The position numbers and the translations under genes are program-made. The notes below the pieces were generated by a model. That model saw only the letters and a program-made list of their open reading frames with translations, made no database searches and was not told the DNA's origin. A stretch of DNA of 64,000 bases from Acidipropionibacterium thoenii DSM 20276 (GTDB lineage: Bacteria > Actinomycetota > Actinomycetes > Propionibacteriales > Propionibacteriaceae): the NCBI RefSeq assembly GCF_000423445.1, contig NZ_AUHZ01000006.1:124001-188000 (forward strand), written 5' to 3'. Shown here piece after piece: positions 14,888 to 31,027 of this stretch; the first letter of the stretch is position 1, and each line of letters begins with the position of its first letter.

Positions 14888-14893
14888 TGTCGA

Positions 14894-17004: not shown

Positions 17005-17036
17005 TGCACTCATGTGCAGGTGACCTTGAGTCACCT
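17005..17036. promoter_or_regulatory. Candidate SorC-family operator upstream of IIB
   Basis: TGCACTCATGTGCA (17005-17018) is a 5-bp half-site palindrome with a 4-nt spacer. It abuts a second palindrome, AGGTGAC-CTTGA-GTCACCT (17018-17036). They lie about 145 bp upstream of the IIB start, next to a minus-strand CAATATTC that could be a -10 element. The first matches the TGCAC-N4-GTG pattern near 18400. Confidence 0.5.
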
Positions 17037-17143
17037 AGTGGGTCGGGGGTGGCGCGGGCCGCAGCCACCTCGCAGATTCTATGGTTTTTCGTTCAGGATC
17101 GTTGACGAGGGGTCGGCGCACTGGGCGGACCCCCGGACCGGTC

Positions 17144-18202
17144 TCAGTGCTCGCCGCCGAAGAAGGTGCTCCACGGCAGATCCAGCGGGGCGTCGTGCGC
17201 CACGATCTGGTAGAGCGCCCGCAGCAGCGGGAAGTGATCTGAGGGCACCACGCCGCGCGCGATGAGCTTCTCGACAGCCTCGCCGACGACACCGATCGCG
17301 GCGACCCCCTCCAGGGTGACCCCCTTCATCTTGACATTGCGGATCTCGGAGAAGGCGACTCCCTCACCGACGTAGGTGCCGGCGCGGACGTTGCGACCGC
17401 CCATGGTGGTGACGAACATGTCTCCGACCCCGCCGAGGTTCTCGGTGACCAGCGGGTCGCCGCCCATCAGGACGACCATTTCCTTCAGCTCGCGGGCGCC
17501 CTCGCAGAACAGCGCTGCCGCGTAGTTGTACAGCACGTACTTGTCGTTCTGCTTGCCGGCCTTCTTCAGCATGCCGGGGGCGAATCCGCCGCCGAAGGCG
17601 AAGATGTTCTTCATGCAGGAGCCGACCTCGTTGCCGATGAAGTCGGTGGAGGTCCAGATGTGGTAGTAGTCCGTGCGGTACAACGGGGCGAGCTTCTCGG
17701 CGATCTCCTGCTTCTCGGCGCAGAAGGTGACGCAGGTGAGGTGGTGGACCGCCAGCTCGCCGGCGATCGAGGGGCCGACGATGGCAGCCCAGTCCACCTG
17801 GTCGGCCAGCGGGCCCATCTTCTCCTTGAGGACGTCGGGGAGGATGTGCAGGGTGCCGTCCTCGTCGGCGCGCATCCCCTTGGTGATCGACAGGATGATC
17901 TGGCCGGGCTTGGCGAGGGTGGCCAGCTGCTCGCCGGCCCACTCGACGCCGAAGGAGTTGACGCCGCTCATGATGATGTCGGCGTCCTTGACGGCCTCGG
18001 CGGCCTCGGTGAAGTAGAAGGGCTTGACGGACTCGGGGATCTTGAGCCCCAGCACCGGGTGGGTGCCGTCCGCCTTGATGGAGTCGATGATCTCGTCGTC
18101 GAGGTGGGTGCCGATCAGGTTGACCTCGTTGCCGTTCTCGGCAGCAGGGAAGGTGAGCGCGGTGGCCATGATGCCTGCGCCCAGGACTGCAATCTTCGCC
18201 AT
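17144..18202 (-). CDS. GpsA-like glycerol-3-phosphate dehydrogenase family protein
   Basis: A 352-residue NAD(P)-dependent dehydrogenase related to GpsA. The N-terminus MAKIAVLGAGIMATAL holds the dinucleotide loop, followed by ILSITKGMR and VGPSIAGELA. The C-terminal helical domain carries the catalytic-lysine region of the family in IGNEVGSCMKNIFA and the substrate loop around GGVGDMFVTTMGGRN. Being sandwiched between a SorC regulator and PTS genes argues against housekeeping phospholipid synthesis. It more likely oxidises or reduces a phosphorylated alditol or triose made in this pathway. The start at 18202 has a strong AAGGAG site; an upstream extension lacks support. Confidence 0.8.
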   Translation of the reverse strand: MAKIAVLGAGIMATALTFPAAENGNEVNLIGTHLDDEIIDSIKADGTHPVLGLKIPESVKPFYFTEAAEAVKDADIIMSGVNSFGVEWAGEQLATLAKPGQIILSITKGMRADEDGTLHILPDVLKEKMGPLADQVDWAAIVGPSIAGELAVHHLTCVTFCAEKQEIAEKLAPLYRTDYYHIWTSTDFIGNEVGSCMKNIFAFGGGFAPGMLKKAGKQNDKYVLYNYAAALFCEGARELKEMVVLMGGDPLVTENLGGVGDMFVTTMGGRNVRAGTYVGEGVAFSEIRNVKMKGVTLEGVAAIGVVGEAVEKLIARGVVPSDHFPLLRALYQIVAHDAPLDLPWSTFFGGEH

Positions 18203-18399
18203 GATTCTCCTTCTGTGCGGGCACACCGGCGTGGGCTGTCGGAGCCTTGGCCGTGCGCCATGATGACGTCTTGCCCGGGTCGGGTGAGTGTCCCGGTGAT
18301 GGTCGGCGGGGTCAGCGACAGTGCTGAAGCGGACCTGGTCGAACCGACGAGAAGACGCTAACCCCGACGCCTCACCGAAGTCCCGCTCGACGGGGGTTC

Positions 18400-18413
18400 T
18401 GCACAAATGTGGG
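18400..18413. promoter_or_regulatory. Candidate operator upstream of the GpsA-like gene
   Basis: TGCACAAATGTGGG matches the TGCACTCATGTGCA palindrome at 17005 at 10 of 14 positions, including the TGCAC and TGTG cores. It lies about 200 bp upstream of the GpsA-like start, in the gap after the SorC-type regulator gene. Confidence 0.4.
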
Positions 18414-18439
18414 GCGACAGGCTCGTGTGTGGGGTGTGG

Positions 18440-19411
18440 TCACTCCTGCTGGCCTGCCGTGGTTCGGTTGCTCAGCACGGCCTCGGCGACCTCGGAGTCG
18501 GTGACCACCTCGGTGCACAGCCCCCCCGACAGCGCGGCCCCCATCGCCTCCGCCTTCTCCAATCCTGCTGCCACCGCGATCACCCGGGGGGATCGGCGGA
18601 CCGCCTCGAGATCCATCGACAGCGTCCGGGCGTCAAGATCCGGGTCCACCGGATGGCCCGAGGAGTCCACGAAATGGCTCATCACGTCGGCCTTGGCCCC
18701 GGAGGCGCGCAACCGGGCCATGTCCCCGGGGGAGATGTGGCCGGCTCCCACCAGCACCGAGCCGTTGTCGGCGGGCCCGGGGGAGTAGACCAGCAGGTCC
18801 GCGTGGGAGGCCATCTCCAGGGTTCTGGCGACCGAGGTGTCGGCGCGCAGCATGGTGCACAGCTGTGCCGAGCCCAGCACGGTGGGTGCCTGCAAGGTGA
18901 TGGCACGGCCGCGGCCGAGTTCGGCCATCATCACCACCGATCGGCCGACCAGGTCGTTGCGGGTGATGGCCACCCCGCCGTTGGTCTGCACGACAGTGAC
19001 CTCGCGGGTCCAGCCGGGACGGAGGTGGCGGACCACCTGGGCCAGCGTCCTGCCCCAGCTGACGCCAATCACCGAGGGTGCTGGTCGCAGCAGGCTGATG
19101 TTGTCGGCAGCTGCCGAGGCGATCACGTCCAGGGTGGCCTCCACGCGGCCCTGGGTGGGGACGACGATGGCCCGGCTGAGCCCGAAGCGTCTGGTGAGCT
19201 CGACCTCCAGTCGGTGGTGGCGGGCCAGCGGGTGGTCGATGGTGATGTGCACCAGGCCGGAGTCGCGGGCCGACTCGAGCATCCTGCCCACCGTCCAGCG
19301 GCTCAGCGACAGCCGATCGGCGATCGCGGACTGGGTCATCTGCTCGAAGTAGTACATCTCGGCGACGTGGAGCACCTCGATGAGGTGCTCGTCCTTGGTC
19401 TTGCGCGCCAT
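18440..19411 (-). CDS. SorC/DeoR-type sugar-binding transcriptional regulator
   Basis: A SorC-family regulator of about 323 residues. The N-terminal helix-turn-helix lies in MTQSAIADRLSLSRWTVGRMLESAR. The C-terminal sugar-phosphate-binding domain includes VIGVSWGRTLAQVV and the late GLEKAEAMGAALSGG segment. It should respond to a phosphorylated intermediate of the adjacent galactitol-type pathway and control the minus-strand cluster it heads. The start is uncertain: I use MARKTKDEH at 19411, but ATG at 19417 or GTG at 19465 are possible, and none has a good ribosome-binding site, so leaderless translation is plausible. Confidence 0.85.
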   Translation of the reverse strand: MARKTKDEHLIEVLHVAEMYYFEQMTQSAIADRLSLSRWTVGRMLESARDSGLVHITIDHPLARHHRLEVELTRRFGLSRAIVVPTQGRVEATLDVIASAAADNISLLRPAPSVIGVSWGRTLAQVVRHLRPGWTREVTVVQTNGGVAITRNDLVGRSVVMMAELGRGRAITLQAPTVLGSAQLCTMLRADTSVARTLEMASHADLLVYSPGPADNGSVLVGAGHISPGDMARLRASGAKADVMSHFVDSSGHPVDPDLDARTLSMDLEAVRRSPRVIAVAAGLEKAEAMGAALSGGLCTEVVTDSEVAEAVLSNRTTAGQQE

Positions 19412-19931
19412 GGGCATCACTGTAGGGGCAATCGGGTGCCCGATCTCGGGGGTCGGTGGGGACACTCAGCGAAGATGGTCCTGCCGCGCCCAACATGTGT
19501 CCGCATATCTGTGACTGACAGGCGTGCAGGCGCCGCGCTGTGCAGTTGGGCCGATTCGAGCATTCTGACTGCCCAGCAGTGACTGCCCAGAGTCTGCCAG
19601 TTTCAGGGCTGGTCGCGTTCCGGAGGTCATGTTGGGAGCCGATGCCTGACAAGAAGAGGCTTCAGGGCCGACCAGACGGGCTTGGTTCGCGACCGAGTCG
19701 TTCCGGGACCAGCCGATGGATCTTGGCCTCACAACTGATCAGCAGCTCGAGCCTCAGCTGCCACGTCAGTGGAGGTGGTGCGCATTGTCCAGGGCTCTGC
19801 TCACGGCTGGTGGAAAAACCCGTGCAGTGTCTTGTGTGCCGCGCGTAGGTGTGCCATGCTCGTCGTGTGGTCGCAAAAAGATGCGAATCACATGCAAATA
19901 CTTGCACTTCTCGAGACGAAGGAGTTTCGTG
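19412..19931. promoter_or_regulatory. Divergent region between the two PTS loci
   Basis: About 520 bp without a convincing gene, separating the minus-strand galactitol-type locus from the plus-strand sorbitol-type locus. GC content drops towards the right side. It holds the TGCAA palindrome at 19893 and an ACATGTGT element near 19493. Confidence 0.6.
19893..19906. promoter_or_regulatory. Candidate SorC-family operator upstream of the sorbitol-type PTS
   Basis: TGCAAATACTTGCA is a perfect 5-bp half-site palindrome with a 4-nt spacer, ending 25 bp before the IIC start codon. The same pattern with one mismatch, TGCAAGATATTGCC, occurs at 29610-29623 upstream of the opposing aldolase operon. Confidence 0.55.
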
Positions 19932-20606
19932 ATGACCCCTCTACTTGTTGCACCCTGGGGAGGTAGCCAACTCCTGGCGATACCCCTGGATGTCAAATCG
20001 AACGCTGTGATGCAGGGCATCGCATGGTTTGCTACGCACTTCATCGGCCTGTTCAAGGCCGCGGCTGAGAGCTTCGTCGGCCTCGCGACGGGTGTGATCC
20101 CGTTGCTCCTGGTTCTCATCACCTTCATGTACGCGCTCACCACCTGGATTGGTGAGAAGCGAGTCACGCACGCCGTGCAATGGGCAGGTAAGTACGCGGT
20201 CACGCGATACACGCTGATGCCGCTACTGGCGGTCATCATGTTGACGAACCCGATGTGCTACACCTTCGGACGGTTCCTTCCGGAGCGGTACAAGCCGGCC
20301 TACTACGACGCCACAGTGTCGTTCGTGCACCCGGTGACGGCCTTCTTCCCGCATGCGAATGGCGCGGAGCTTTTCGTCTGGGCGGGCGTCTCTGCTGGAG
20401 TGCTGAAGGTTGACAGCGGTGCATATGCACGGTTGGCGGCGCTCTACTTCCTCGTGGGGCTGATCGTCATCCTCATGAGAGGACTGGTGACTCAAGGTTT
20501 CACGAACTTCCTCATCAAGCGTGGCGGGCATGAGGCGGTCTTCCAGAAGTTCGATGAGGACTACGCCCAAGGCCAGATGGAGCGCACTGAGGAGGCAGTG
20601 GCATGA
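19932..20606 (+). CDS. srlA: PTS glucitol/sorbitol-type IIC component
   Basis: A membrane component of a sorbitol-family PTS, 224 residues. It matches SrlA over WFATHFIGLFKAAAESFVG, NPMCYTFGRFLPERYKPAYY, FFPHANGAELFVWAGVSAG and the RGLVTQGFTNFLI end. It is longer than E. coli SrlA at both ends. I use the ATG at 19932, which follows AAGGAG with 7-nt spacing; the open frame extends upstream but only through promoter sequence. The gene overlaps the next by 4 bp. The transported alditol is not known: this family also carries sugar alcohols other than sorbitol. Confidence 0.87.
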   Translation: MTPLLVAPWGGSQLLAIPLDVKSNAVMQGIAWFATHFIGLFKAAAESFVGLATGVIPLLLVLITFMYALTTWIGEKRVTHAVQWAGKYAVTRYTLMPLLAVIMLTNPMCYTFGRFLPERYKPAYYDATVSFVHPVTAFFPHANGAELFVWAGVSAGVLKVDSGAYARLAALYFLVGLIVILMRGLVTQGFTNFLIKRGGHEAVFQKFDEDYAQGQMERTEEAVA

Positions 20607-21628
20607 CAACGGATTTTCCCGCTGTGCGGATCAATAAGGGCGCAGGTGGATGGGGTCCTGGCTTGGTGGTCCGCGTCCATGGCGACCGAAACATCGTTCT
20701 CTCCGTCACCGGTGGAGATGAGCATCCGGTAGCCAAGAGGATTGCTGAGCTGACCGGAGGACGGGTGGTCAACGCCTTCAACTCCGGTGCCCCCGATGAC
20801 CAGGTCATGTGTGCCGTCATCAACTGCGGTGGAACAGCGCGGAGCGGCGTCTACCCGAAGAAGCGCATCCCGACTGTGAACGTCTTCACGGCTTCCCCTG
20901 GAGGGCCACTTCAGAAGTACATCACCGATGACATCTACGTCTCGGGCGTGGGGGTCAGCAATGTCGAGACTGCCGAGGCTGGTACCCCAGCTATCGGCGA
21001 CGATGGCGCTGAGACGGGTCAGGCAAGCCAGCCCCCTCAGCCGGATGGTTCTGATGCCGCAGTGAACAGTACCGCTGTTGGGGAGGTGAAAAAGGAGAGC
21101 GCCTTCTCGAGGTTCATCATCAAGTTCGGCGGAGCGATCGGCTACGTAATTACCAGCCTGCTCAACGCGGGCCGGGAAGGCGTCAAGCTGATCCTGAACA
21201 CGGTCATTCCGTTCATGGCTTATGTGGCACTGATCATGGGAATCGTGAACTACACGGGCCTGGCGAACTGGATCGCCAGGAGCGTGTCGCCGCTGGCAGG
21301 CAGCCTCTGGGGTCTGCTCCTGCTCGGCATCATCACGGGGCTGCCAATTCTGTCACCATTCCTTGGCCCCGGCGCTGCGATCGCGCAGATTATTGGCGTG
21401 CTTATGGGCGCTCAGATAGCAACAGGAGCTCTGCCGGTGCGGTATGCCTTGCCGACATTGTTCGCCATTGACGGCCAAGTTGGATGTGACTTCATACCGG
21501 TGGGTTTGAGCCTCGGCGAGGCGCAATCGGAAACAGTTGATGTCGGTGTTCCGGCGGTGCTCTTCGGCCGTCAGCTCACGTCACCGCTCGCTGTTCTCAT
21601 TGCATACGGATTCTCCTTCTTGGTGTAG
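20603..21628 (+). CDS. srlE: PTS glucitol/sorbitol-type IIBC component
   Basis: A 341-residue fusion of the IIB domain with the second half of the permease. The IIB part (about residues 1-125) carries the phosphorylated cysteine in VINCGGTARSGVYP (Cys75; a second Cys at 70). A Gly/Pro/Gln-rich linker covers about 125-165. The membrane part has LLNAGREGVKLILNTVIPFMAY and LPILSPFLGPGAAIAQIIGV, as in SrlE. Its start overlaps the IIC stop (ATGA). The family's usual substrate is sorbitol, but the neighbouring enzymes do not resemble a simple sorbitol-6-phosphate pathway. Confidence 0.88.
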   Translation: MTTDFPAVRINKGAGGWGPGLVVRVHGDRNIVLSVTGGDEHPVAKRIAELTGGRVVNAFNSGAPDDQVMCAVINCGGTARSGVYPKKRIPTVNVFTASPGGPLQKYITDDIYVSGVGVSNVETAEAGTPAIGDDGAETGQASQPPQPDGSDAAVNSTAVGEVKKESAFSRFIIKFGGAIGYVITSLLNAGREGVKLILNTVIPFMAYVALIMGIVNYTGLANWIARSVSPLAGSLWGLLLLGIITGLPILSPFLGPGAAIAQIIGVLMGAQIATGALPVRYALPTLFAIDGQVGCDFIPVGLSLGEAQSETVDVGVPAVLFGRQLTSPLAVLIAYGFSFLV

Positions 21629-21722
21629 GAGAGTACTGAAGTAGTACATGACATGAGTTGATCCGGGTGGCCAAGTCATTACGAACGGCCACCTGGAGAG
21701 ATCAGGACAAGGGAGTTTTGAT

Positions 21723-22106
21723 ATGGCCACTGTGCTGTGGCAGTCAGAGATAACATTCGTGGGTGAGGATGCCCCAGATCTGCTCGAGGCTGGCGTGATG
21801 ATCCTCTTTGGAGAGCCTGTGCCTGACGCGCTCGCTGAGGTAAGTGTCGTCCACAAGCTTGGCGGGGCTGCCGCAGTCTCCGCCGCATCGGAGGTGGCTC
21901 CGGGTGACGAGGTGCGCTTGGGTGCCGAGGTCTTCACGATCGATGAGGTCGGTGATGTGGCGAATCGGAATCTGGCTGATCTGGGCCACATTGTGGTTTA
22001 CGTCAACAATCCGGATCAGCCTCTGCTACCCGGAGCACTCAAAGCTCATGGTGCGGATATCAAGACACCGGCGATTGGTCAGACTGTCGCCTTGATAAGG
22101 CCATGA
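21723..22106 (+). CDS. srlB: PTS glucitol/sorbitol-type IIA component
   Basis: A 127-residue protein of the EIIA-Gut family, which receives phosphate from HPr. The phosphorylated histidine is most likely His44 in EVSVVHKLGG, aligned with His43 of E. coli SrlB. The following FTIDEVGDVANRNLADLGHIVVYV and the closing IGQTVALI agree with the family. The 94-bp gap after srlE holds an AAGGGAG ribosome-binding site. Together with the IIC and IIBC genes it completes one full permease. Confidence 0.88.
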   Translation: MATVLWQSEITFVGEDAPDLLEAGVMILFGEPVPDALAEVSVVHKLGGAAAVSAASEVAPGDEVRLGAEVFTIDEVGDVANRNLADLGHIVVYVNNPDQPLLPGALKAHGADIKTPAIGQTVALIRP

Positions 22107-22116
22107 GGTGATCTGA

Positions 22117-22557
22117 ATGGAATGGAAATTCGCACTCTACTTGTTCGCCGCAATGATTCTCGCCGTCCCGTTTACTTGGTCTCAGACTCGTCGGTACACC
22201 CGAGCCCTACGCGAGATGGCGGATATTCATAACGACCGATCCAATATTCTTGTGTCTGGCAGGGGCCGTGGCAAGATTCGCGGTGCGGTCGTTATGCTAG
22301 TCATTAACGCTCAATCCAGAACTATTGTCGAGGCCCGTGTGATGGCTGGCGCTTCAGTATTTGCACCAATTCGCCGAAACCTTGCGTTGGAAGGCCCAGC
22401 GGACGATGCAGTCGATCGTGCCGGCGACAAGATGCTCCGCAAGGCGGTGGCTCAGGCTCTCGAACAATTCGACAAGGTCTGCGGAGTCAGAGCGACAGCT
22501 ACACATCGGACCGTGACTCGGTCAATGCGGCAGACCAGTCTATCCACCACCGCCTGA
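22117..22557 (+). CDS. GutM-family glucitol operon protein
   Basis: A 146-residue protein of the GutM family. It has one N-terminal membrane helix (ALYLFAAMILAVPFTW) followed by a short soluble domain with the segment IHNDRSNILVSGRGRGKIRGAVVML and a VEARVMAGASVFA stretch that match GutM. In enteric bacteria GutM is described as an activator of the sorbitol operon, but its membrane helix and constant link to the permease suggest it may instead act at the transporter. It lies 10 bp after srlB. The C-terminal 25 residues are low-complexity. Confidence 0.78.
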   Translation: MEWKFALYLFAAMILAVPFTWSQTRRYTRALREMADIHNDRSNILVSGRGRGKIRGAVVMLVINAQSRTIVEARVMAGASVFAPIRRNLALEGPADDAVDRAGDKMLRKAVAQALEQFDKVCGVRATATHRTVTRSMRQTSLSTTA

Positions 22558-22620
22558 TCGCCACCCATCAGAAGTTTCTCAAGAACAACGAAGTTTTCAT
22601 CCTTTGAAAGGACATATCCC

Positions 22621-23919
22621 ATGGGATACAGCAAGCGTCTCCTCGCTCGTCAAGCAGAATTCGGTCGTCCAGTTCGCGTCGGAGTTGTGGGCGCGGGACA
22701 GATGGGTCGCGGACTTGTCGCACAGGTGCAGCTCGCCCCCGGGCTGGAGGTCGTCGCCGTTGCTGACGTCGACATTGAGCGCGCCACCACCGCTCTGAAG
22801 AACGCCGGGCGTGACGACGCCGTCGTCGAGAATGACGTCGCCAAGGCCTCCGCGATCATTGAGGCCGGTGGATCTGTGGCCATCGAGGACGGTCTGTCGA
22901 TGCCCGAGCTGCCTCTGGACATGGTGCTTGAGGCCTCCGGAGTTCCGGATGTCGCCGCCCAGGTTGCTTATGCGGCTATCACCAATCACACCGACATCGG
23001 TCTGATGACAGTTGAGGCAGATGTCACTGTCGGCCTGCTGCTCTCGTCGATGGCCAATGCCGGAGACTCGATCTACACGATCTGCCGCGGCGATGAGCCC
23101 ATTGAGTGCGTGAAGCTCGTCGAGTACGCCGAGGATCTCGGTCTTGAGGTCGTGGTGGCGGGCAAGGGTAAGAACAACCCGAACCGTCCCACTGATGTCC
23201 CCGACGACGTCGTGGAAGAGGCTCGGATCAAGAAGATGAACCCGAAGATGCTGTGCTCTTTCACTGATGGCACCAAGACGCAGATCGAGATGTGTGCGCT
23301 GTCGAACGCGACAGGGTTCAAGGTCGAGGTCCCCGGCATGCATGGACTTGAGTGCAATATCGACGAGCTTGACCAGAAGCTCGTGCCAGTTGGTGATGGA
23401 GGAGTTCGCCAGAGCGACGGTCCCATCGTTGAGTACGTCACTGGAAATGTGGCCCCCGGCGTGTTCGTCATCGTGAAGTCTCCAAATCCGGTCGTCACCG
23501 AGGAGCTGCAGTATCTGCGTGTCGGTAAGGGCGAGTACTTCAAGATCTACCGGCCCTATCACCTTGCTTCCATCGAGGCCGACCTCTCAGTCGGCGAGGC
23601 AGTGCTGGATCGACACCCCTCCTTCCAGTCGACGACCTGGACCTCGGAGGTCACTGCGGTGGCGAAGCATGATCTGAAGTCTGGGACGAAGCTCGAGGGT
23701 ATCGGCGGACACCATGTCCATGGCTGGACCGTCGACGCCAAGGAGGCGAGCGCGGCCAAGGCGCTCCCGATTGGGCTGGCTGCTGGTTGCGTGCTGACAT
23801 CGGACGTCAAGGCTGGTGAGACGGTCACCTACGACGACGTGGAGATTGACGAGACTCGACCTCTGGTGGCCATGCGTCGGCTGCAGGACGCCATGATCGC
23901 CAACGGCACGATCGGCTGA
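22621..23919 (+). CDS. COG4091-like NAD(P) oxidoreductase with C-terminal SAF domain
   Basis: A 432-residue protein of the group described as predicted homoserine dehydrogenase with a C-terminal SAF domain (COG4091). The N-terminus has a Rossmann loop RVGVVGAGQMGRG (about residues 18-30), a middle homoserine-dehydrogenase-like catalytic region (LEVVVAGKGKNNPNRPTD) and a SAF domain from about residue 350 (AVAKHDLKSGTKLEG, AAGCVLTSDVKAGETVTYDD). No threonine-biosynthesis neighbours are present, so a role on an imported alditol phosphate is more likely than homoserine synthesis. The start has a GAAAGGA site. The reaction is unknown, which makes this the key gene for testing the locus. Confidence 0.8.
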   Translation: MGYSKRLLARQAEFGRPVRVGVVGAGQMGRGLVAQVQLAPGLEVVAVADVDIERATTALKNAGRDDAVVENDVAKASAIIEAGGSVAIEDGLSMPELPLDMVLEASGVPDVAAQVAYAAITNHTDIGLMTVEADVTVGLLLSSMANAGDSIYTICRGDEPIECVKLVEYAEDLGLEVVVAGKGKNNPNRPTDVPDDVVEEARIKKMNPKMLCSFTDGTKTQIEMCALSNATGFKVEVPGMHGLECNIDELDQKLVPVGDGGVRQSDGPIVEYVTGNVAPGVFVIVKSPNPVVTEELQYLRVGKGEYFKIYRPYHLASIEADLSVGEAVLDRHPSFQSTTWTSEVTAVAKHDLKSGTKLEGIGGHHVHGWTVDAKEASAAKALPIGLAAGCVLTSDVKAGETVTYDDVEIDETRPLVAMRRLQDAMIANGTIG

Positions 23920-23965
23920 GCCAAAGACAGGCAAGTTCGCGATACCGGAGGACTCCGGGTGCACT

Positions 23966-24000
23966 CGGGAGGCGTCCATGGCTCGCATGGGCGCCTCCCG
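23966..24000. other. Intergenic hairpin before the zinc dehydrogenase gene
   Basis: A 15-bp stem with one G-T pair (23966-23980 with 23986-24000) and a 5-nt loop, 46 bp after the SAF-protein stop. There is no T-tract. It could partly terminate or stabilise the upstream mRNA. Confidence 0.6.
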
Positions 24001-24039
24001 CCGACAAGAACGTCTCCCGTAGGAAGTAGGGGTAATTCG

Positions 24040-25086
24040 ATGCTGTCCATGAGGTTTCATGCGCCAGGTGATGTGCGCCTCGAGGAGGTCCCTGAGCCAG
24101 TCTGTGGATCGGAAGAAGTCAAGATCAGGGTTCGGAACTGCTCGATGTGCGGTACAGATCTCAAGGCCTTCAGAAATGGTCACCAGATGATCAGCCGCGT
24201 GACGACCATGGGTCACGAAATAGCTGGTGAAATCGTCGACGTCGGGTCCTCAGTATCAAGCAACTGGTCTCCGGGAGACCGGGTTCAGGCTATCTCCAAT
24301 ATCCCCTGCGGAAAATGCTACCAGTGCCGCCGTGGATGGACCCAAGTGTGCGAAAACCAAAACAGCATGGGCTTCCAGTATGACGGCGGCTTCGCTGAGT
24401 TCATGATCGTGCCGGAGGCGATGCTTCGAGCCAATGGTCTGAACAGGATCCCGACGGGCGTTGATTTCGCCGAGGCGAGTGCGGCCGAGCCGTGTTCTTG
24501 TGCCATCAATGCGCAAGAGCAGCTGGGTATCGAGCCTGGCGACTTCGTGGTGGTCATCGGAGCCGGCCCGATCGGGTGCATGCACGCTCGACTTGCCAGG
24601 AACATCCACAGGGCAGGAACAGTGGTATTGGTGAACCGCCGGCCTGGCAGGTTGGCCAGGTCCGCTGAGCTTGTGCAACCCGACTTCGCCATCGACTCAT
24701 CGCAGGACGACGTGGTCGACACCGTGATGGGCCTCACTGACGGCCGTGGCGCCGACGTTGTCATCACGGCCACCCCAGCAGGGAAAGACCAGATTCACGC
24801 GGTGGAAATGGCAGCACGGAATGGTCGGATATCATTCTTCGGAGGCCTGCCGAAGATTGCGCCGACCATCACGCTTGACTCGAACTTGGTTCATTACCGG
24901 CAGCTCCACATCCATGGCACGAATGGCTCCACGCCTGAACACAACCGGCTGGCCCTCGAATACTTTGCAACCGGGACGCTGCGAGCTAACGACCTCATCA
25001 CCCACCGAATTCCACTCAAGGAGGGCTTGAGGGCCTTTGATGTGCTGGCCAGTGGCGAGGCCATCAAAGTCACAGTCGAGCCGTAA
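24040..25086 (+). CDS. Zinc-dependent medium-chain dehydrogenase
   Basis: A 348-residue MDR-family dehydrogenase. NCSMCGTDLKAFRNG holds the catalytic-zinc cysteine (about residue 37), MGHEIAGEIVDVG the zinc histidine, and CGKCYQCRRGWTQVC the structural-zinc cysteines. VVVIGAGPIGCMHARLA binds NAD(P). It is similar in plan to the dehydrogenase at 12040-13074, and both are placed in PTS loci, so both probably oxidise alditol phosphates to ketose phosphates. The start at 24040 gives the usual N-terminus and follows an AGGGG site; the longer open frame runs through a hairpin. Confidence 0.84.
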   Translation: MLSMRFHAPGDVRLEEVPEPVCGSEEVKIRVRNCSMCGTDLKAFRNGHQMISRVTTMGHEIAGEIVDVGSSVSSNWSPGDRVQAISNIPCGKCYQCRRGWTQVCENQNSMGFQYDGGFAEFMIVPEAMLRANGLNRIPTGVDFAEASAAEPCSCAINAQEQLGIEPGDFVVVIGAGPIGCMHARLARNIHRAGTVVLVNRRPGRLARSAELVQPDFAIDSSQDDVVDTVMGLTDGRGADVVITATPAGKDQIHAVEMAARNGRISFFGGLPKIAPTITLDSNLVHYRQLHIHGTNGSTPEHNRLALEYFATGTLRANDLITHRIPLKEGLRAFDVLASGEAIKVTVEP

Positions 25087-25181
25087 AAGGGTCCAAAGCG
25101 GAAAAGTATGCAGGCCAATCAACGGGCGATCATCGGTCCCGCGTCAAATATGCCGTGAACTACATACGAGGAGAAAGTGCT

Positions 25182-26222
25182 ATGAAAACCCGAATTCTGT
25201 GTGTTGGAGATGGAGCTGTAGGGACTGCATTGATGGAGGAGCTGAGGCCGCTGGAGAGCCTTGGAGCTGAGATCACCATCGTGCAGGATGCTGATTCCAC
25301 CACGCTGCCCGAGTACATGGACCGTCTCGCACTGGTGGAAAGGGAAGGCTTGGGGGCGATCTCCTCCTGCCAGGCCTTGCTGGACAACTGTGCCGATGCC
25401 GACGTCATCGTTGTGGACGGCACTCCGGTTGGCAGCGATGTCATTGAACGCTCGACTAATCTCAAGCTGGTAGCAGTCTTGCGCGGAGGAGTTGAGAATG
25501 CCGACCTCAAGCAGCTCGAAGAGAGGAATATTCCTCTCGTGCATGCGCCCCAGCGCTCTGCCGACGCCGTAGCTGACTACACGATCGGAATGATGATTGC
25601 TGAGAACAAGAATATTGCTCGTAGCCACCATCTCATCCTCGAGGGTCAATGGTGCAAGAACTACCTTAACCGGGACTACGTCCACAATATGAAGACACGC
25701 ACAGTCGGAATTGTGGGGTTTGGTCAGATCGGATCGCGAGTGGCGAAGCGCCTGATTGGATTCGAAAGCAGAGTGATTGCTTTCGATCCGTTCATGTCTA
25801 CTGCACAGATCGAGAAGGTGGGCGTCACGGCGGTGGACACCCTGGAAGAACTCCTTGAACGGTCGGACTTTGTGACTTTGCACCTGAGGACCTCGCCGCA
25901 GACTTATCACATCATTGATGGCCCGGCTCTGGCGCACATGCAGCGGACCGCTTACCTCATCAACACCGCACGATCATCGTTGGTCGATGAGGCGGCCCTG
26001 GTCGAAGCGCTCCAGCAAGAGCGGATCGGGGGAGCGGCTCTCGACGTGTTCGACATTGAACCGTTGCCTAGCGATCACCCATTCCTGAGCCTGCGGAATG
26101 TGACGCTCACGCCGCATATAGCTGGTACGTGTGCAGATACCTGGCACGCATCTGTGGAGATCGGACTGGAGGAGTTGACCCGCTACCTCAAGGGTGAGGC
26201 TCTTCAGAATCGCAGGATCTGA
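25182..26222 (+). CDS. D-isomer-specific 2-hydroxyacid dehydrogenase family protein
   Basis: A 346-residue member of the phosphoglycerate/formate dehydrogenase superfamily. VGIVGFGQIGSRVAKRL is the NAD loop, the substrate-binding arginine is in LINTARSSLVDE, the acidic relay residue is in ALDVFDIEPL, and the catalytic histidine is in LTPHIAGTCADTW. There is no C-terminal ACT domain, so it is not a regulated SerA. It could reduce or oxidise a 2-keto or 2-hydroxy acid produced by the pathway. The ATG at 25182 has a strong GAGGAG site. GC content is lower than the genome background. Confidence 0.83.
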   Translation: MKTRILCVGDGAVGTALMEELRPLESLGAEITIVQDADSTTLPEYMDRLALVEREGLGAISSCQALLDNCADADVIVVDGTPVGSDVIERSTNLKLVAVLRGGVENADLKQLEERNIPLVHAPQRSADAVADYTIGMMIAENKNIARSHHLILEGQWCKNYLNRDYVHNMKTRTVGIVGFGQIGSRVAKRLIGFESRVIAFDPFMSTAQIEKVGVTAVDTLEELLERSDFVTLHLRTSPQTYHIIDGPALAHMQRTAYLINTARSSLVDEAALVEALQQERIGGAALDVFDIEPLPSDHPFLSLRNVTLTPHIAGTCADTWHASVEIGLEELTRYLKGEALQNRRI

Positions 26223-26352
26223 CTCCTGGGGCTCTCGACTCCCGTAGGGTTGAGCGGAACCTGTGAGAGCATCGCCCGTGTGCGGGCCACCGTCCACGCA
26301 AGGGCAGTGGGCGTTGTTGCAGAACACGGAGTCGAGAGGGGGAGATGCAGTC

Positions 26353-27312
26353 ATGGCTCCACGTCGGGACGTGCAGACCTTGGTCAAGGTCGCGACGATG
26401 TACTACGCGGAGGGACAGAACCAGTCTGCTATTGCCAAATCCCTTGGCATCTCCACGTCCAGCATCTCCCGGATCCTCGCTCAGGCTCGAGACGACGGCC
26501 TTGTCACCGTGATCATCCGGGACCCGTCCAAGGCGGTTGAGCGTCGCACTGACCTTGAGAATGCTCTGGTGAAGGAGTTCGGACTGCATCGTGCTTGGGT
26601 CGCCGCGATAGGGCCGGGCTCGCGCTCACTGGATGAGGTCGGGAGACTGGCCGCTGAGGTCTTCGTGGAGTACACCGCGCAGGTGAGGTCAGTCGGGCTC
26701 AGCTGGGGGCGCACAGTCAGGGCATTCGTGCAGTCCGTGCCTGATCAGCCGACAAGCTTGCCGCTGGAGCTCTACCCGCTGTCAGGTGGGATGTCGGACC
26801 AGGATGCCAACCTGTCTGGCAACGCCGTCGTCCAAGAGCTTGCTGGCCGCTGCGGCGGTCACGCCCATCGAATTGATGCCCCAGCCATTGTTCAGTCTGC
26901 CAGGACTGGAAAGGCGATGCTCGATGAGCCGGTGGTCGCCCGGGCATTGGAAGCAGCTCAGGACTGCGATCTCGCCATCGTTGGCGTGGGATCGATGGGT
27001 GTGCACTGGTCAGCCGGACTTGTTCGCTCGATGAGACTCGATCCAGAGCAGTTGGAACAGGTACGCGCCGCCGGGATCGCTGGTGACGTGTGTGGCAGAT
27101 TCATCAATGATGATGGGAAACCGGTCCTCACACCTGCTGATGATCACGTCATTGGACTGACTTTTGAACAGCTCTCCCATATCGAACGCGTGATGGGAAT
27201 CGTGTCCGGTGCGGAGAAGTCCCGAGGAGCAGCGGCTGTGCTCAGGTCGGGGATTCTCACCGGCATCGTGCTTGATGAGAATTTGGCTGAAGTGGTGCTT
27301 TCGGCGTCCTGA
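26353..27312 (+). CDS. SorC-family transcriptional regulator of the sorbitol-type locus
   Basis: A 319-residue SorC-family regulator. The helix-turn-helix is in QSAIAKSLGISTSSISRILAQAR, and the sugar-phosphate-binding domain contains SVGLSWGRTVRAFV, a conserved ELYPLSGGM segment and the closing GAEKSRGAAAVL. It closes the plus-strand PTS cluster and lies tail to tail with the aldolase operon. The matching TGCAA palindromes upstream of srlA and of the TIM-like gene suggest it controls both. The start at 26353 is chosen for the GGGGAG site and because it removes an unconserved 30-residue leader. Confidence 0.87.
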   Translation: MAPRRDVQTLVKVATMYYAEGQNQSAIAKSLGISTSSISRILAQARDDGLVTVIIRDPSKAVERRTDLENALVKEFGLHRAWVAAIGPGSRSLDEVGRLAAEVFVEYTAQVRSVGLSWGRTVRAFVQSVPDQPTSLPLELYPLSGGMSDQDANLSGNAVVQELAGRCGGHAHRIDAPAIVQSARTGKAMLDEPVVARALEAAQDCDLAIVGVGSMGVHWSAGLVRSMRLDPEQLEQVRAAGIAGDVCGRFINDDGKPVLTPADDHVIGLTFEQLSHIERVMGIVSGAEKSRGAAAVLRSGILTGIVLDENLAEVVLSAS

Positions 27313-27409
27313 GCGCAGCCGCAACAATGCTATCTGCTGTCCTCGCCGTGTTCTCCGTGGGGCGGCCCGACTATCCGCGATCCGGATGGGTCGTTCGTCA
27401 GCTCAATTT

Positions 27410-28273
27410 TCATGCCACGGCCTGGTCGGCATCGTAGATGCATGTCATGAACGCCTTGACATTGGATGCGATTGCTTCAGTTGCAGCGCTCGCGACGTCA
27501 GGATAGACGAAGACATCAGAGTGTTGGTCGAGTAATCTTCGGGCACCGTCCAATCCAGCTTTGACCGAGTAGGTGTAGTAGTTGATCTTCCTCACCCCTT
27601 CGGCGATACATCGGCGGTATTCTTCGTTGCTGAGACCGGAGCCGCCGTGCATGACGATCGGGACTCCCGCCTCGCGCCGCAGACTCCTTACGAGGTCGAA
27701 GTTTAACTTCGGTTCGCGGTGATACAGGCCGTGGACGGTACCGAACGAAGCGGCCAGGCAGGTGACTCCGGTGCGTTCCACAAACTGTTTGGCCACGGCG
27801 GGGTCGGTGTAGAGAGCTTCATCCGCGACTCCCTGATCGGGATCGCCGTTCTCGTTGCCAGTCATCACTCCCAGCTCTCCCTCAACGCCAGCGCCGTAAC
27901 CGTCAGCGATCTGGACAGCTTCTGCGGTCGTCTCGACGTTGCGCTCGAACGGCATACGTGATCCATCCAGCATCACCGAGGTGAACCCCAGCTCCAGGCC
28001 AGTGCGGATGTAGTGGAGATCCTCACCATGGTCTATATGAACCACGCACGGTACCGAAGCTCGTTCGGCAAGGGAGACCATTGCTGGCCCGATATCGGTG
28101 ATCCTATTGATTTTCTCGTGACTTTGGGCGTGGGCCAAAATTACCGGAACATTGAGCTGCTCGGCTGCTCTTATCGTGGCCACCAGTGACTCAAAAATAG
28201 GTGTGTTGACTGCGGCAATTGCGCATTGATGATCCTCGGCGTAGTCGAGGGCGTCTTTGAGACCGATGAGCAT
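27410..28273 (-). CDS. Class II ketose-bisphosphate aldolase (FbaA/GatY/KbaY family)
   Basis: A 287-residue zinc-dependent aldolase of the type that cleaves fructose- or tagatose-1,6-bisphosphate to dihydroxyacetone phosphate plus glyceraldehyde-3-phosphate. Zinc-binding histidines appear in PCVVHIDHGED, GTVHGLY and IVMHGGSGLS, and VNTPIFESL is the family N-terminal motif. It is the last gene of the isomerase-YjbQ-aldolase operon. Since no sugar-phosphate kinase is present in the locus to make a bisphosphate, the substrate may be a ketose-1-phosphate or a four-carbon analogue. That is inference. Confidence 0.85.
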   Translation of the reverse strand: MLIGLKDALDYAEDHQCAIAAVNTPIFESLVATIRAAEQLNVPVILAHAQSHEKINRITDIGPAMVSLAERASVPCVVHIDHGEDLHYIRTGLELGFTSVMLDGSRMPFERNVETTAEAVQIADGYGAGVEGELGVMTGNENGDPDQGVADEALYTDPAVAKQFVERTGVTCLAASFGTVHGLYHREPKLNFDLVRSLRREAGVPIVMHGGSGLSNEEYRRCIAEGVRKINYYTYSVKAGLDGARRLLDQHSDVFVYPDVASAATEAIASNVKAFMTCIYDADQAVA

Positions 28274-28277
28274 GACG

Positions 28278-28811
28278 TCACTCTCCGATGACAGCGACTT
28301 TAATCTTGCGGTCGCGTTCGCGGTTGGGGTCCCAGTCGACGAAGTAGATGTAGCCCACAGCGCCGATCTGGAGAGCGGAGTTGTCGATGACGAAGGTCTG
28401 GGATGCTCCGATGAGCGTACCGCGAAGGTGGGCCTCGGTGTTGAGGAGACTCTCCAGATCGGGCACCAGAATCGTCGAACCGGTGCTGGTAGCGCCGTCG
28501 GTCATGTTCTGAACTGCCTCGACGTGAGCGGGTCCGGGGTGGTGATACTGGTTGTTGGTCATGCAGCGGGGGAAGATCTTGTCCAAACCCTCGTTGAGAT
28601 CGGCTTGGATATATTCGTCGCCGGCGAAATCTACGTCATGGCAGTACTCCTCGAAGAACACAGAGCAGGTGGTATGCGTCGACGCCACTGTGCAGATGCC
28701 TGATTTGACTCCCGATGCTGCGACGATGCGGCGCACCTCATCGGTGATCTCGAAATAGGTGGGTCGGCCGGCCTTGGACCGAACTTGGATGGTGTCAATG
28801 TTGACGGTCAT
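28278..28811 (-). CDS. YjbQ/UPF0047-family protein
   Basis: A 177-residue protein of the YjbQ (UPF0047) family. Visible family motifs are VASTHTTCSVFF (with the Thr-His-Thr-Thr core), EGLDKIFP, the YHHPGPAHVEAVQNM histidine cluster, and GTLIGASQTFVIDN. Some family members have weak thiamin-phosphate-synthase activity, but the physiological role is unsettled; family members also occur in sugar catabolic clusters. It ends 4 bp before the aldolase start and follows the TIM-like gene by 19 bp, so all three form an operon. It may handle a phosphorylated or reactive intermediate, but nothing here proves it. Confidence 0.82.
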   Translation of the reverse strand: MTVNIDTIQVRSKAGRPTYFEITDEVRRIVAASGVKSGICTVASTHTTCSVFFEEYCHDVDFAGDEYIQADLNEGLDKIFPRCMTNNQYHHPGPAHVEAVQNMTDGATSTGSTILVPDLESLLNTEAHLRGTLIGASQTFVIDNSALQIGAVGYIYFVDWDPNRERDRKIKVAVIGE

Positions 28812-28830
28812 AGTTTAGATTTCCTTCTTG

Positions 28831-29589
28831 TTACTTGCTGTGCAGGTCCTTCTGAACAGTCGAAGCGATATGAGGATTGGGGGTTGCGTCTAGCAGCCTG
28901 TTGCGGCGGTCCTTTTCGGCGCGCAGGGCGGTGAGCATGTCAGAGATGGTGGACCGCCAGTCTGGTGCACAGACGATGCCACTGGTTCCACCCGAGGCGT
29001 CGGCTCCGAGCGCCAGTACTCTTGCGACGTCCTCACCGGTGGACACGCCCGCTCCCTGGAGCACCATGATGGCGGGGTTGACCTCCTTGACCGCGGCGGT
29101 GGAATCCCGGATGTAGTCGTCAGTGGTGAGCGAGCCGGTGCCGATATTGGAGGAGGGCTCGCAGATCATCACGTCGGGTCCCAGCTGTGCGACCACCCGA
29201 CACTGGGCGATGGAGTCGGCGCAGACCACTGTGGCGAGCCCGACCTCACGGGCGCGCATCAGAGCGGCGTCCAGCTCGGCCAGGGTGAGGGGGTGCTCGG
29301 CGTGATTGAGCACCACGGCCCGGGCCCCGGCCGCCACCAGTGACTCCGGCAGGATGTGCCCCATCCCTCGGCCGGGATTGATGGGGTCCATGTGCTGGGC
29401 GGTGACGATCAGTCTCTCCGTCTGCTCGGAGACAAGCCGGATGTCTGCGTGCTGGACGGTGAACATGATGTCGACACCGAAGTCTTGGCTCAGGCCGTCG
29501 GCAAGCTGGGCGAGTTCCAAGGCCTGGTCGCCGTAGAGATAGGCCTTCGGATTGATGATGAGAAACGGAGCCTCGATGACCCGATTCAT
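28831..29589 (-). CDS. Triosephosphate-isomerase-like sugar-phosphate isomerase
   Basis: A 252-residue TIM-barrel protein. The three catalytic positions of TIM appear conserved: lysine in INPKAYLY (NPK for the usual NWK), histidine in LNHAEHPL (for GHSERR), and glutamate in ICEPSSNIGTG (for YEPVWAIGTG). The altered surroundings mark it as a paralogue, comparable to the isomerases of erythritol and threitol catabolism (EryH/LerI type), rather than housekeeping TpiA. It heads the operon and has a GGAGG site. A substrate such as erythrulose phosphate or dihydroxyacetone phosphate is plausible but unproven. Confidence 0.8.
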   Translation of the reverse strand: MNRVIEAPFLIINPKAYLYGDQALELAQLADGLSQDFGVDIMFTVQHADIRLVSEQTERLIVTAQHMDPINPGRGMGHILPESLVAAGARAVVLNHAEHPLTLAELDAALMRAREVGLATVVCADSIAQCRVVAQLGPDVMICEPSSNIGTGSLTTDDYIRDSTAAVKEVNPAIMVLQGAGVSTGEDVARVLALGADASGGTSGIVCAPDWRSTISDMLTALRAEKDRRNRLLDATPNPHIASTVQKDLHSK

Positions 29590-29609
29590 CTGACCTCCAA
29601 GGGAGTAGA

Positions 29610-29623
29610 TGCAAGATATTGCC
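29610..29623. promoter_or_regulatory. Candidate operator upstream of the TIM-like gene
   Basis: TGCAAGATATTGCC repeats the TGCAA-N4-TTGCA palindrome found at 19893-19906 with one end mismatch, 21 bp upstream of the TIM-like start codon. It suggests both operons of the sorbitol-type locus answer to one regulator. Confidence 0.5.
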
Positions 29624-29771: not shown

Positions 29772-30548
29772 ATGGCAGAACCCGTGGTGGCCCTCGTGAT
29801 GGCTGCCGGTATCGGCACCAGGTTCGGTGGGCCGGTCCCCAAGCAGGTCAAGGAGCTCACCGGCAAGGCGGTGGTGGCGGTGGCGGTGGAGGCGATGGCC
29901 GCCGGCGGCTGCACCGATGCAGTGGTGGTGGTCAAGGGCGGTATGCACAACCACTTCCGACTGGCCCTGGCGGCGTCCCCCATCCCGGTGCGGTTCGCCA
30001 CCGGCGGCGCCAGCCGCCAGGAGTCGGTGCACCACGGCCTGCAGCTCATCAAGAACCATCCGCAGCTGTGCCAGGCGCGCAAGGTCCTGATCCATGACGC
30101 CGTGAGGCCGCTGGTGCCGGCCTATGTCGTCGAGGATGTGCTGGCCGCCCTGGACGCCGGGGCGGTCGCGGTGACCCCGGCGGTCCCGGTGGTCGACACC
30201 ATCCGCCAGCTGGACGGCGAGACCTCCACGGTGATTGACCGATCCACCCTGCGAGCTGTCCAGACCCCCCAGGGATTCGACCGGGAGGTCATCACGGGCT
30301 GTCACGAGAGGCTGCACGAGGAGGGCGGGGAGGTCACCGATGACGTCACCTGCTGCCAGAACTACGGCTACCCGGTGGAGCTCGTCGGAGGCTCACGGAT
30401 GGCACTCAAGATCACCGAACCGCTGGATCTGGACATCGCCGAGACGCTGCTCAAGGCCACCGCGGGAGCCGGCCACCACTCCGGACGCCGGGTCCGCAGG
30501 GTGCTCAGCGGGATGGATCCCCGACCCTCGCACCGGCGTCGCGGATGA
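29772..30548 (+). CDS. ispD: 2-C-methyl-D-erythritol 4-phosphate cytidylyltransferase
   Basis: Third enzyme of the MEP isoprenoid pathway; it joins CTP to methylerythritol phosphate. The 258 residues include the nucleotide-binding loop [17 protein letters not shown], the catalytic DAVRPLV motif, and [10 protein letters not shown] with the [10 protein letters not shown] region. A basic tail of about 20 residues extends past the usual end. It overlaps ispF by 4 bp (ATGA). The first enzymes of the pathway lie elsewhere. Confidence 0.94.
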
Positions 30549-31027
30549 TCCCGCAGATCCGCACCGGCATCGGTACTGACGTCCACCAGCTGGTGGACGG
30601 CGTGGAGATGCACCTGGCCGGGTTGTTCTTCCCCGATGAACCGGCCGGGCTGGCCGGGCACTCGGACGGTGATGTCGCCGCCCACGCGATCTGTGATGCC
30701 CTGCTCTCGGCCGCCGGGCTGGGGGATCTCGGTGCCAACTTCGGCACCGATCGTCCCGAATGGGCCGGGGCTGCCGGGGCGGCATTCCTGACCGAGACGG
30801 TGAGGATGCTGGCCCGGGCCGGCTGGCAGGTGGGCAATGTCGCCGTTCAGGTGATCGGGAACCGCCCGAGGATGGCGGCGCGGCGCCACGAGGCCGAGGC
30901 ACTGCTCACCGATGTGGTCGGTGCGCCGGTCTCGGTCTCAGCGACCACCACAGATCACCTCGGACTGACAGGGCGGGGCGAGGGGGTCGCGGCGATCGCC
31001 ACCGCTCTCATCGGCCGGCAGGGCTGA
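30545..31027 (+). CDS. ispF: 2-C-methyl-D-erythritol 2,4-cyclodiphosphate synthase
   Basis: This enzyme cyclises the IspD/IspE product in the MEP pathway. The 160-residue protein has the metal-binding GIGTDVHQL at its N-terminus, the conserved [24 protein letters not shown] and a closing [20 protein letters not shown]. It is translationally coupled to ispD. Its last 90 bp overlap the 3' end of the convergent MATE gene on the other strand. Confidence 0.94.

Follow-up and report, generated by a model that had tools for sequence, protein, structure and literature searches.

A sorbitol-type phosphotransferase island with a DXR-II-family oxidoreductase in Acidipropionibacterium thoenii: a candidate operon for 2-C-methyl-D-erythritol catabolism

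We analysed a 64,000-nucleotide stretch of the Acidipropionibacterium thoenii DSM 20276 genome (contig NZ_AUHZ01000006.1, positions 124,001 to 188,000), referred to here as the window, and in particular an island at 19.9 to 29.6 kb that a first-pass annotation had described as an uncharacterised alditol pathway. The island encodes a sorbitol-family phosphotransferase system (PTS) with GutM, followed by an oxidoreductase of the COG4091 group (DRL), a zinc-binding dehydrogenase, a D-2-hydroxyacid dehydrogenase, and a SorC-family regulator. Genes for a class II aldolase (FBA), a YjbQ protein, and a triose-phosphate isomerase (TIM)-like protein are on the opposite strand (Table 1). All were found in the order and on the strands first assigned to them. 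Adjacent plus-strand genes are separated by -4 to 120 bp, which is an operon-like arrangement. The start of the IIC gene is better placed at the ATG at 19932, which an AAGGAG-like site precedes. The lower GC content that had been noted is also clear: 0.575 to 0.607 across 1.5-kb intervals from 20.0 to 29.5 kb, compared with mostly 0.66 to 0.70 elsewhere. The island genes are kept at 66 to 92% identity in a congener (locus L024), and the combination of PTS, DRL, and TIM/FBA/YjbQ was found again in the Bacillota loci L137, L142, and L144. Therefore, a chance assembly is excluded.

Table 1. Features of the island and its neighbours, with positions in the window
Feature	Position	Strand	Supporting matches and remarks
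srlA-like sorbitol-family PTS IIC	19932..20606	+	PF03608 220 bits; NF049923 190 bits (cut-off 150)
srlE-like sorbitol-family PTS IIBC	20603..21628	+	PF03612 + PF07663; NF049924 412.5 bits (cut-off 400)
srlB/gutA-like PTS IIA	21723..22106	+	PF03829 87 bits; far under TIGR00849 sorbitol-subfamily cut-off
GutM-like protein	22117..22557	+	PF06923 44.6 bits
DRL/DXR-II-family NAD(P)-dependent oxidoreductase (COG4091)	22621..23919	+	PF21135 DRL_cat 197 bits; phmmer ~1e-92 to 3UPL/3UPY
Zinc-binding MDR dehydrogenase, accessory	24040..25086	+	PF08240 + PF00107
D-2-hydroxyacid dehydrogenase, accessory	25155..26222	+	PF02826 198 bits
SorC-family regulator	26263..27312	+	PF04198 182 bits
Class II ketose-(bis)phosphate aldolase (FBA)	27410..28273	-	PF01116 260 bits
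YjbQ/UPF0047 protein, longer than usual family member	28278..28811	-	PF01894 88 bits; TIGR00149 66.9 bits, just below cut-off 67.75
TIM-like isomerase, archaeal type (PRK04302)	28831..29589	-	NF003302 192 bits (cut-off 132); 1HG3 3.7e-45
ispD, MEP cytidylyltransferase, housekeeping neighbour	29772..30548	+	PF01128 177 bits
ispF, housekeeping neighbour	30545..31027	+	PF02542 175 bits; sole copy found in window genome
Galactitol-type PTS (IIA, IIC, IIB), GpsA-like dehydrogenase, and second SorC	13807..19465	-	Pfam

The transport genes have the PTS family and GutM in common with sorbitol (gut/srl) operons (four Pfam matches), and IIC and IIBC, alone among them, exceed the NCBIfam cut-offs for sorbitol transporters. 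An ordinary sorbitol operon that had picked up unrelated genes would account for this. However, IIA and GutM score far under the sorbitol-specific cut-offs, and DRL and its partners go with this type of PTS in other phyla. Unlike gut/srl operons, the window has a SorC regulator, DRL, and carbon-carbon cleaving modules, and none of the ten proteins scanned between 19.9 and 29.6 kb is a sorbitol-6-phosphate dehydrogenase of the short-chain dehydrogenase/reductase (SDR) type. With no such dehydrogenase seen and the partner genes conserved, we rejected sorbitol as the substrate, and we regard this explanation as extremely unlikely. The first-pass annotation had reached the same view of the island, as a PTS polyol system probably not for sorbitol. 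It had also seen no sugar kinase, and there is none among the genes scanned in the stretch. Erythritol and threitol catabolism uses TIM-like and RpiB isomerases (EryH/EryI and LerI). Those routes resemble the scheme considered below in having a TIM-like isomerase that acts on a ketose phosphate; the window differs from them in having YjbQ and a class II aldolase. Among the genes scanned there was no kinase for erythritol or erythrulose, and the 20 genes between 13.8 and 34.3 kb that were scanned with Pfam include neither an erythritol kinase nor RpiB. Therefore, an erythritol or threitol pathway of the kinase-RpiB type was rejected.

The COG4091 protein had been taken for a generic oxidoreductase. 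Judged by its sequence, it is a member of the DXR-II/DRL family. A phmmer search matched it over residues 6 to 427 to the Brucella DXR-II structures 3UPL and 3UPY (~1e-92), and it has the PF21135 DRL_cat domain (cut-off, 27 bits) and a PF08666 SAF domain (22.9 bits; cut-off, 21). The Rossmann, DRL_cat, and SAF arrangement is that of Brucella-type DXR-II (PMC3847144), with a full-length match. DXR-II converts 1-deoxy-D-xylulose 5-phosphate (DXP) to 2-C-methyl-D-erythritol 4-phosphate (MEP); fosmidomycin, an inhibitor, is anchored by residues K191, K193, and T229, and the dimer interface includes R320 (PMC3847144). In an alignment, the window DRL retains K191, K193, N194, N195, T229, H250, R320, and Y322. 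N194, N195, and T229 are missing from eight distant DLO-like rows (L039 to L043 and L146 to L148). A quick tree was built from 92 of 122 DRL rows (30 were omitted as short, near-duplicate, or crowded). In it, 3UPL clusters with alphaproteobacterial DRLs, most of which are E1 adjacent, at 97 to 99% SH-aLRT. Unlike the Brucella-type enzymes, the window DRL is in a PTS operon, its host also has DXR-I, and the direction that we propose for it is the opposite one. Membership in the DXR-II/DRL family argues for a branched five-carbon polyol rather than the linear alditols that the first-pass annotation had listed.

Neighbourhoods of DRL were compared in several samples. In the family of A. thoenii, 28 of 147 genomes had a DRL match at E <= 1e-20, 17 of them with at least 60% identity and the others with 31 to 37%. 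A set of 68 named loci came from a GTDB species-genome collection that was searched using 16 aligned close relatives. A second set of 40 loci comprised 38 of the 40 matches in Bacillota, the phylum of Aedoeadaptatus genome G159, where DRL was found at E <= 1e-60 in 36 of 398 genomes, and 2 of the 3 matches in the alphaproteobacterial class. A gene was counted as near DRL if it was within 9 kb. Some of the species are nearly identical, and single metagenome-assembled genomes (MAGs) contribute several contigs each, so the counts are not of independent events. We assigned the names CarD, CysS, IleS, and IspE in relatives from sequence beginnings, and these are presumed identities.

A core of sorbitol-type PTS, GutM, DRL, and SorC recurs across Actinomycetota, Bacillota, and Pseudomonadota. 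At least two sorbitol-PTS genes were near DRL at 50 of the 68 named loci and 24 of the 40 second-set loci, and GutM and SorC were near it at 50 and 52 of the named loci, respectively. This was the neighbourhood check that had been suggested for the island, and its genes stay linked in relatives, with TIM, FBA, and YjbQ all near DRL at 17 of 68 named loci (3 of 40 in the second set). Some loci with no PTS genes are short contigs, and others (L097, L098, and L100 to L111) are genuinely different. A Listeria innocua record has only a regulator, DRL, GutM, and the sorbitol PTS, and so represents PTS plus DRL without further modules. Plasmids of Sinorhizobium, Rhizobium, Pseudoroseomonas, Nitratireductor, and Aminobacter share the annotated order DRL-E1alpha-E1beta-E2. 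In Pseudoroseomonas and Rhizobium B230/85, DRL-E1-E2 is accompanied by a sorbitol PTS with its own enzyme I; in Nitratireductor, GutM and PTS IIC lie farther along; and in Aminobacter, ABC transporter genes flank DRL-E1-E2, with no kinase or SorC in the stretch. Two PTS-less plasmid loci have other transporters and a kinase. The Sinorhizobium Rm41 record encodes a sugar kinase, an ABC transporter, a SorC-type regulator, DRL, E1alpha, E1beta, E2, lpdA, and lipA, and the Priestia record encodes E1beta-E2-lpdA, a regulator, an MFS transporter, another regulator, DRL, and an FGGY kinase. These arrangements are expected if DRL needs a phosphorylated polyol. They suggest that a transporter and kinase can substitute for the PTS, so that the source of the phosphorylated substrate varies while DRL and the downstream complex stay.

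The commonest partner of DRL was a module that is absent from the window and was therefore invisible to the first-pass annotation. E1alpha and E1beta genes were near DRL at 35 of 68 named loci (33 with E2) and 17 of 40 second-set loci. At 22 of 38 and 14 of 18 E1alpha-bearing loci, respectively, E1alpha lies no more than 250 bp downstream of DRL in the same orientation, and an E1alpha match is directly beside the DRL match in 14 of the best 25 DRL plasmid records. PTS-DRL-E1-E2 loci include those of Salinibacterium amurskyense (L079) and Micropruina glycogenica (L050). By tblastn, Sinorhizobium fredii NGR234 has the order SorC-DRL-E1a-E1b-E2-E3. This strain has a member in the published DXR-II clade (PMC3847144), which may be the E1-linked gene. 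The two modules tended to exclude each other. Among the 39 PTS-containing named loci flanked by 5 kb or more on each side, 24 had E1 only, 12 had TIM/FBA/YjbQ only, 2 had both, and 1 had neither (Fisher p = 2.8e-7, relatedness ignored). The same table for the 40-locus set was 12, 2, 1, and 3, which is not significant (p = 0.17). Exclusion is the pattern expected of two alternative uses of one intermediate.

Three DRL-linked E1alpha proteins were scanned. All had the acetyl-transferring pyruvate dehydrogenase (PDH) type as their best match, under the curated cut-off (for L077, 357 bits against 394). Mean identity of DRL-linked E1alpha between Actinomycetota, Bacillota, and Pseudomonadota is 52.9 to 57.2%, compared with 44.1 to 48.8% to five acetoin-type E1alpha proteins and 38.8 to 40.7% to one PdhA. 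Only the Paracoccus record names acetoin dehydrogenase; the labels for the Klebsiella, Acinetobacter, Clostridioides difficile, and Enterococcus proteins are our presumption. In a quick E1alpha tree, the C. difficile protein groups with a DRL-linked spirochaete row, so the DRL-linked proteins do not form a single clean clade. Acetoin dehydrogenase (acoABCL) operons resemble the relatives of the island in their E1alpha-E1beta-E2 genes, and the proposed cleavage of a methyl ketol would be the same chemistry. They differ in that the DRL-linked E1alpha proteins show, on average, higher identity to one another across phyla than to the acetoin type, that the substrate would be DXP, and that E1/E2 genes were not found in the window. 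In E. coli, DXP can arise in vivo through a mutated PDH E1, and deoxyxylulose is a product of purified PDH (PMC3424233). Splitting DXP into glyceraldehyde 3-phosphate and an acetyl group is therefore plausible for an E1 of this kind.

Most likely, the island encodes a form of PTS-dependent polyol catabolism not described in the literature searched at the level of titles and abstracts. We consider it rather probable that its core is a catabolic operon for 2-C-methyl-D-erythritol, a branched sugar alcohol, which would reverse the opening steps of the MEP pathway. The substrate and the direction in which DRL works are inferences here, as are all the steps beyond MEP. The PTS would deliver 2-C-methyl-D-erythritol as MEP, which DRL would oxidise to DXP (CH3-CO-CHOH-CHOH-CH2OP). 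In many relatives, an acetoin-dehydrogenase-like E1alpha/E1beta/E2 complex would split DXP at C2-C3 to acetyl coenzyme A and glyceraldehyde 3-phosphate. Dihydroxyacetone phosphate (DHAP) is the donor for the class II aldolase family, so DXP itself is an unlikely aldolase substrate. In the window, YjbQ and the TIM-like protein might move the carbonyl from C2 to C3 to C4, giving 5-deoxy-pentulose 1-phosphate (CH3-CHOH-CHOH-CO-CH2OP), which the aldolase could cleave into acetaldehyde and DHAP. The move from C3 to C4 would be a TIM-type reaction (R-CO-CHOH-CH2OP to R-CHOH-CO-CH2OP), suited to the TIM-like protein. That from C2 to C3 is given to YjbQ by elimination, and this ketose-phosphate isomerase role is the weakest assignment and a tentative one. 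The SorC regulator may sense MEP or DXP. The sequence of import as a phosphate, oxidation, isomerisation, and aldol cleavage that had been suggested is chemically coherent. Among the literature matches listed (titles and abstract openings), there was no description of bacterial methylerythritol or DXP catabolism, and an exact-phrase search was empty, which does not prove absence.

The three proteins assigned to this branch have invariant positions. As had been noted for the TIM-like protein, its catalytic positions are kept: N13, K15, H96, E98, and E144 (window numbering) are invariant in 15 aligned sequences including that of the window, and K15, H96, and E144 align to those of archaeal TIM (1HG3). 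In 15 aligned class II aldolases, H79, D81-H82-G83, H181-G182, and H209-GGS are invariant, and YjbQ has 36 invariant positions in 15 sequences. Of the 147 family genomes, 11 have a YjbQ of the window type (E <= 1e-20), and 10 of the 11 carry DRL at 60% identity or more. In the eleventh (G001), ispD-TIM-FBA-YjbQ genes extend to the end of the contig (L185).

The closest rival substrate is D-apiitol (2-C-hydroxymethyl-D-erythritol). The PTS would give apiitol 4-phosphate, and a reverse DXR-II-type rearrangement would yield D-xylulose 5-phosphate for the pentose phosphate pathway. The chemistry is identical, with OH in place of H. It would suit loci in which PTS and DRL occur without further modules, such as that of L. 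innocua, and a Ligilactobacillus salivarius plasmid locus (L171) in which DRL, the sorbitol PTS, and a regulator occur with fructose-6-phosphate aldolase (FSA) and transketolase, with no E1/E2 in the stretch shown. A transaldolase/FSA gene was also present at 12 of 40 loci. However, xylulose 5-phosphate needs no lipoyl-dependent E1/E2 complex, and E1alpha plus E1beta is the commonest partner of DRL in both sets; the E1alpha matches to the acetyl-transferring PDH type, though below the cut-off, also point away from a pentulose phosphate. We think that apiitol is an unlikely substrate overall. The L. salivarius locus adjoins inositol genes, and a different branched polyol such as apiitol may be used there. 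Bacterial apiose and apionate pathways unbranch and cleave branched-chain sugar phosphates, and a DXR-type rearrangement is not known to be part of them. None of their genes was recognised in the stretch, in which no dedicated search for them was made.

Another rival is the linear alditol pathway of the first-pass annotation, in which the COG4091 protein would be a plain secondary-alcohol dehydrogenase acting on a tetritol or pentitol phosphate. The PTS family is that of the linear hexitols, and a related DRL-less locus (L189) has TIM-like, RpiB, and Dak-type kinase genes together, an association known from tetritol routes. A linear alditol phosphate does not call for the E1 genes that accompany DRL at about half of the named loci, and the substrate-binding residues are kept in a family whose sole activity described in the DXR-II survey is the DXP/MEP rearrangement (PMC3847144). 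We judge a linear substrate to be quite unlikely. The L189 run (genome G079, 3780 to 10834) comprises Dak1/Dak2 kinase, RpiB, an aldolase-SDR fusion, a DeoC-type aldolase, TIM, and a class II aldolase, and it looks like a tetritol- or deoxysugar-type pathway.

DRL might instead be a second, biosynthetic DXR or serve methylerythritol salvage into isoprenoids, which would explain the position of the island next to ispD-ispF. ispD was near DRL at 24 of 68 named loci and ispD or ispF at 25, and ispD-ispF was near it at 1 of 40 second-set loci. In the Bacillota locus L138, ispD-ispF begins ~120 to 145 bp after DRL and is followed by cysS. In Microbacteriaceae loci (e.g., L077 to L083 and L085), the island occupies the opposite flank, separating ispF from cysS. 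Aedoeadaptatus genome G159 has IspF and IspG, no DXR-I was detected in it, and its DRL is near ileS with no PTS or E1 (L105), a context as expected for a biosynthetic role. G159 belongs to a set of Tissierellia-type genomes (L105 to L111, L143, and L145) in which DRL is near ileS without PTS or E1.

The genomes that carry the operon speak against a biosynthetic role there. The window genome has DXR-I, IspG, and one ispF, plus mevalonate kinase over the cut-off, and DXR-I is present in 12 of 16 DRL genomes tested for MEP-pathway genes, which we chose from the loci. There was no match to IspF, IspG, or DXR-I in Brachybacterium phenoliresistens (G151; L053), a MAG (G152; L051), and Sediminivirga luteola (G161; L086). 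All three carry PTS-DRL-E1-E2, and all three have mevalonate kinase over the cut-off. Therefore, DRL in these genomes does not serve MEP-route isoprenoids if the absences are real. In addition, a SorC-controlled PTS and an E1/E2 complex are foreign to biosynthesis. We rejected an isoprenoid back-up enzyme for operon-bearing genomes in which the MEP genes were not detected and kept it as the likely role in Peptoniphilaceae. As an explanation of the island, it is very unlikely.

The position next to ispD-ispF was examined in 15 DRL-less genomes of the family, which came from the negative list and are not a random sample. No sorbitol PTS, DRL, or E1 was found at their ispF loci. In 8 of the 15, carD directly adjoins ispD with no insert, which also argues against a biosynthetic tie; in 5, ispF comes next, oriented the same way. 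The island thus looks inserted, in line with the acquired island first suggested; no tRNA was found within the window. In two loci of a related genus (L186 and L187), ispD-TIM-srlB occurs without DRL, as apparent remnants of a decayed island. Because such remnants and other PTS genes (L153 to L155 and L158) are found there without DRL, we downgraded ispD-ispF adjacency as proof of function. The repeated proximity fits an MEP-related substrate and may partly reflect neighbourhood conservation or a hotspot.

Several observations weigh against methylerythritol catabolism as the function of the island. The known direction of the DXR reaction is toward MEP, and its reversal in vivo is assumed. The DXR-II survey names Gly121 as highly conserved, and Glu174 is a dimer interface residue (PMC3847144); the window DRL has Ala121 and Lys174, as do nearly all actinobacterial rows (L064 has Glu174). 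The actinobacterial DRL clade is joined only by weakly supported deep forks in the quick tree, and E1/E2-like genes of 27 to 39% identity occur at one of five distant DLO-type loci (L041). No E1alpha, E1beta, or E2 was found by tblastn at positions 8001 to 40000, so that the window branch rests on the weaker isomerase-aldolase proposal. PTS genes are missing near DRL at 18 of 68 and 16 of 40 loci. The FSA and transketolase genes of L171, like the transaldolase/FSA genes of the second set, fit a pentulose phosphate better than DXP. TIM occurs in 19 of 147 family genomes, 9 inside and 10 outside the 17 that have DRL at 60% identity or more. One locus (L184; genome G016, 7930 to 16842) has TIM, two YjbQ genes, an FGGY kinase, an ABC sugar transporter, and an amidohydrolase, with no DRL in the stretch, which suggests that the TIM-YjbQ pair may not be restricted to a single sugar phosphate. 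The three genomes with no detected MEP-pathway genes include the MAG, the completeness of all three is unreported, and another Brachybacterium genome (G154) has IspF, IspG, and DXR-I. Between carD and ispD, three DRL-less congeners (L154, L155, and L158) have a gat PTS, a GpsA-like gene, and SorC, with TIM too in two of them, and in L153, which lacks DRL, ispD-ispF is bordered by gat genes and by those for enzyme I and HPr.

A 2013 survey asks how a second, unrelated enzyme for one step arose in bacteria that have DXR-I (PMC3847144). It reports active DXR-II from Chloroflexus, a mevalonate-only organism, and from Finegoldia, in which the survey found no further genes of the MEP or mevalonate pathways (PMC3847144). 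A catabolic operon, if real, would explain why many DXR-I bacteria keep a seemingly redundant DXR-II. In a more tentative extension, which we hold to be possible and somewhat doubtful, DXR-II would be mainly a catabolic MEP dehydrogenase, fed by a PTS or a kinase and recruited to isoprenoids only in some lineages (Brucella-like and Peptoniphilaceae). Two DXP-cleaving modules would serve it, one with an acetoin-dehydrogenase-like DXP lyase and one with YjbQ as an isomerase, and plant and atmospheric isoprene-derived 2-methylerythritol would be the substrates. 2-Methylerythritol is a plant compound. It has been studied as an aerosol marker of isoprene oxidation. The pathway would provide a route for its use by bacteria, and would suggest a function for the widespread orphan YjbQ family and a role for a class of E1/E2 complexes that currently carry generic 2-oxoacid dehydrogenase annotations.

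Overall, the outline of a polyol island in the first-pass annotation stood, and what it had missed was the DXR-II kinship and the adjoining ispD-ispF. It had also counted the zinc and 2-hydroxyacid dehydrogenases in the set. Of the actinobacterial loci examined, the window and L024 are the only two in which they directly follow DRL, and we dropped them as core steps. They do not look core and are unexplained add-ons. Elsewhere, a zinc dehydrogenase 40% identical to that of the window directly follows DRL in Draconibacterium (Bacteroidota; L098, 3133 to 5500), similar genes occur inside several Bacillota DRL loci, and one with 66% identity is located away from DRL (L187). The Draconibacterium contig has a SorC-like gene, and no PTS was found on it.

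The galactitol-type PTS block beside the island is possibly related to it or a separate system. gatC was near DRL at 10 of 68 named and 8 of 40 second-set loci, and a second PTS lies beside the DRL operon on the Pseudoroseomonas (IIC, IIA, and IIB) and Rhizobium (IIC) plasmids. These second or galactitol-type systems perhaps import a related compound, e.g., 1-deoxyxylulose or a stereoisomer. On a C. difficile plasmid (L178, 4968 to 10888), a sugar-binding regulator and E1alpha-E1beta-E2-E3 genes are beside an MFS transporter and glycosidases, with no DRL in the stretch; its E1alpha is the one that pairs with a DRL-linked spirochaete protein in the E1alpha tree. The window has further GC dips at 38.0 to 39.5 and 60.0 to 61.5 kb. 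A low-GC spot at 37960 to 39092 (GC, 0.56) has two small open reading frames, one with a signal-peptide-like start, and may resemble a lactococcin-972-type secreted peptide region.

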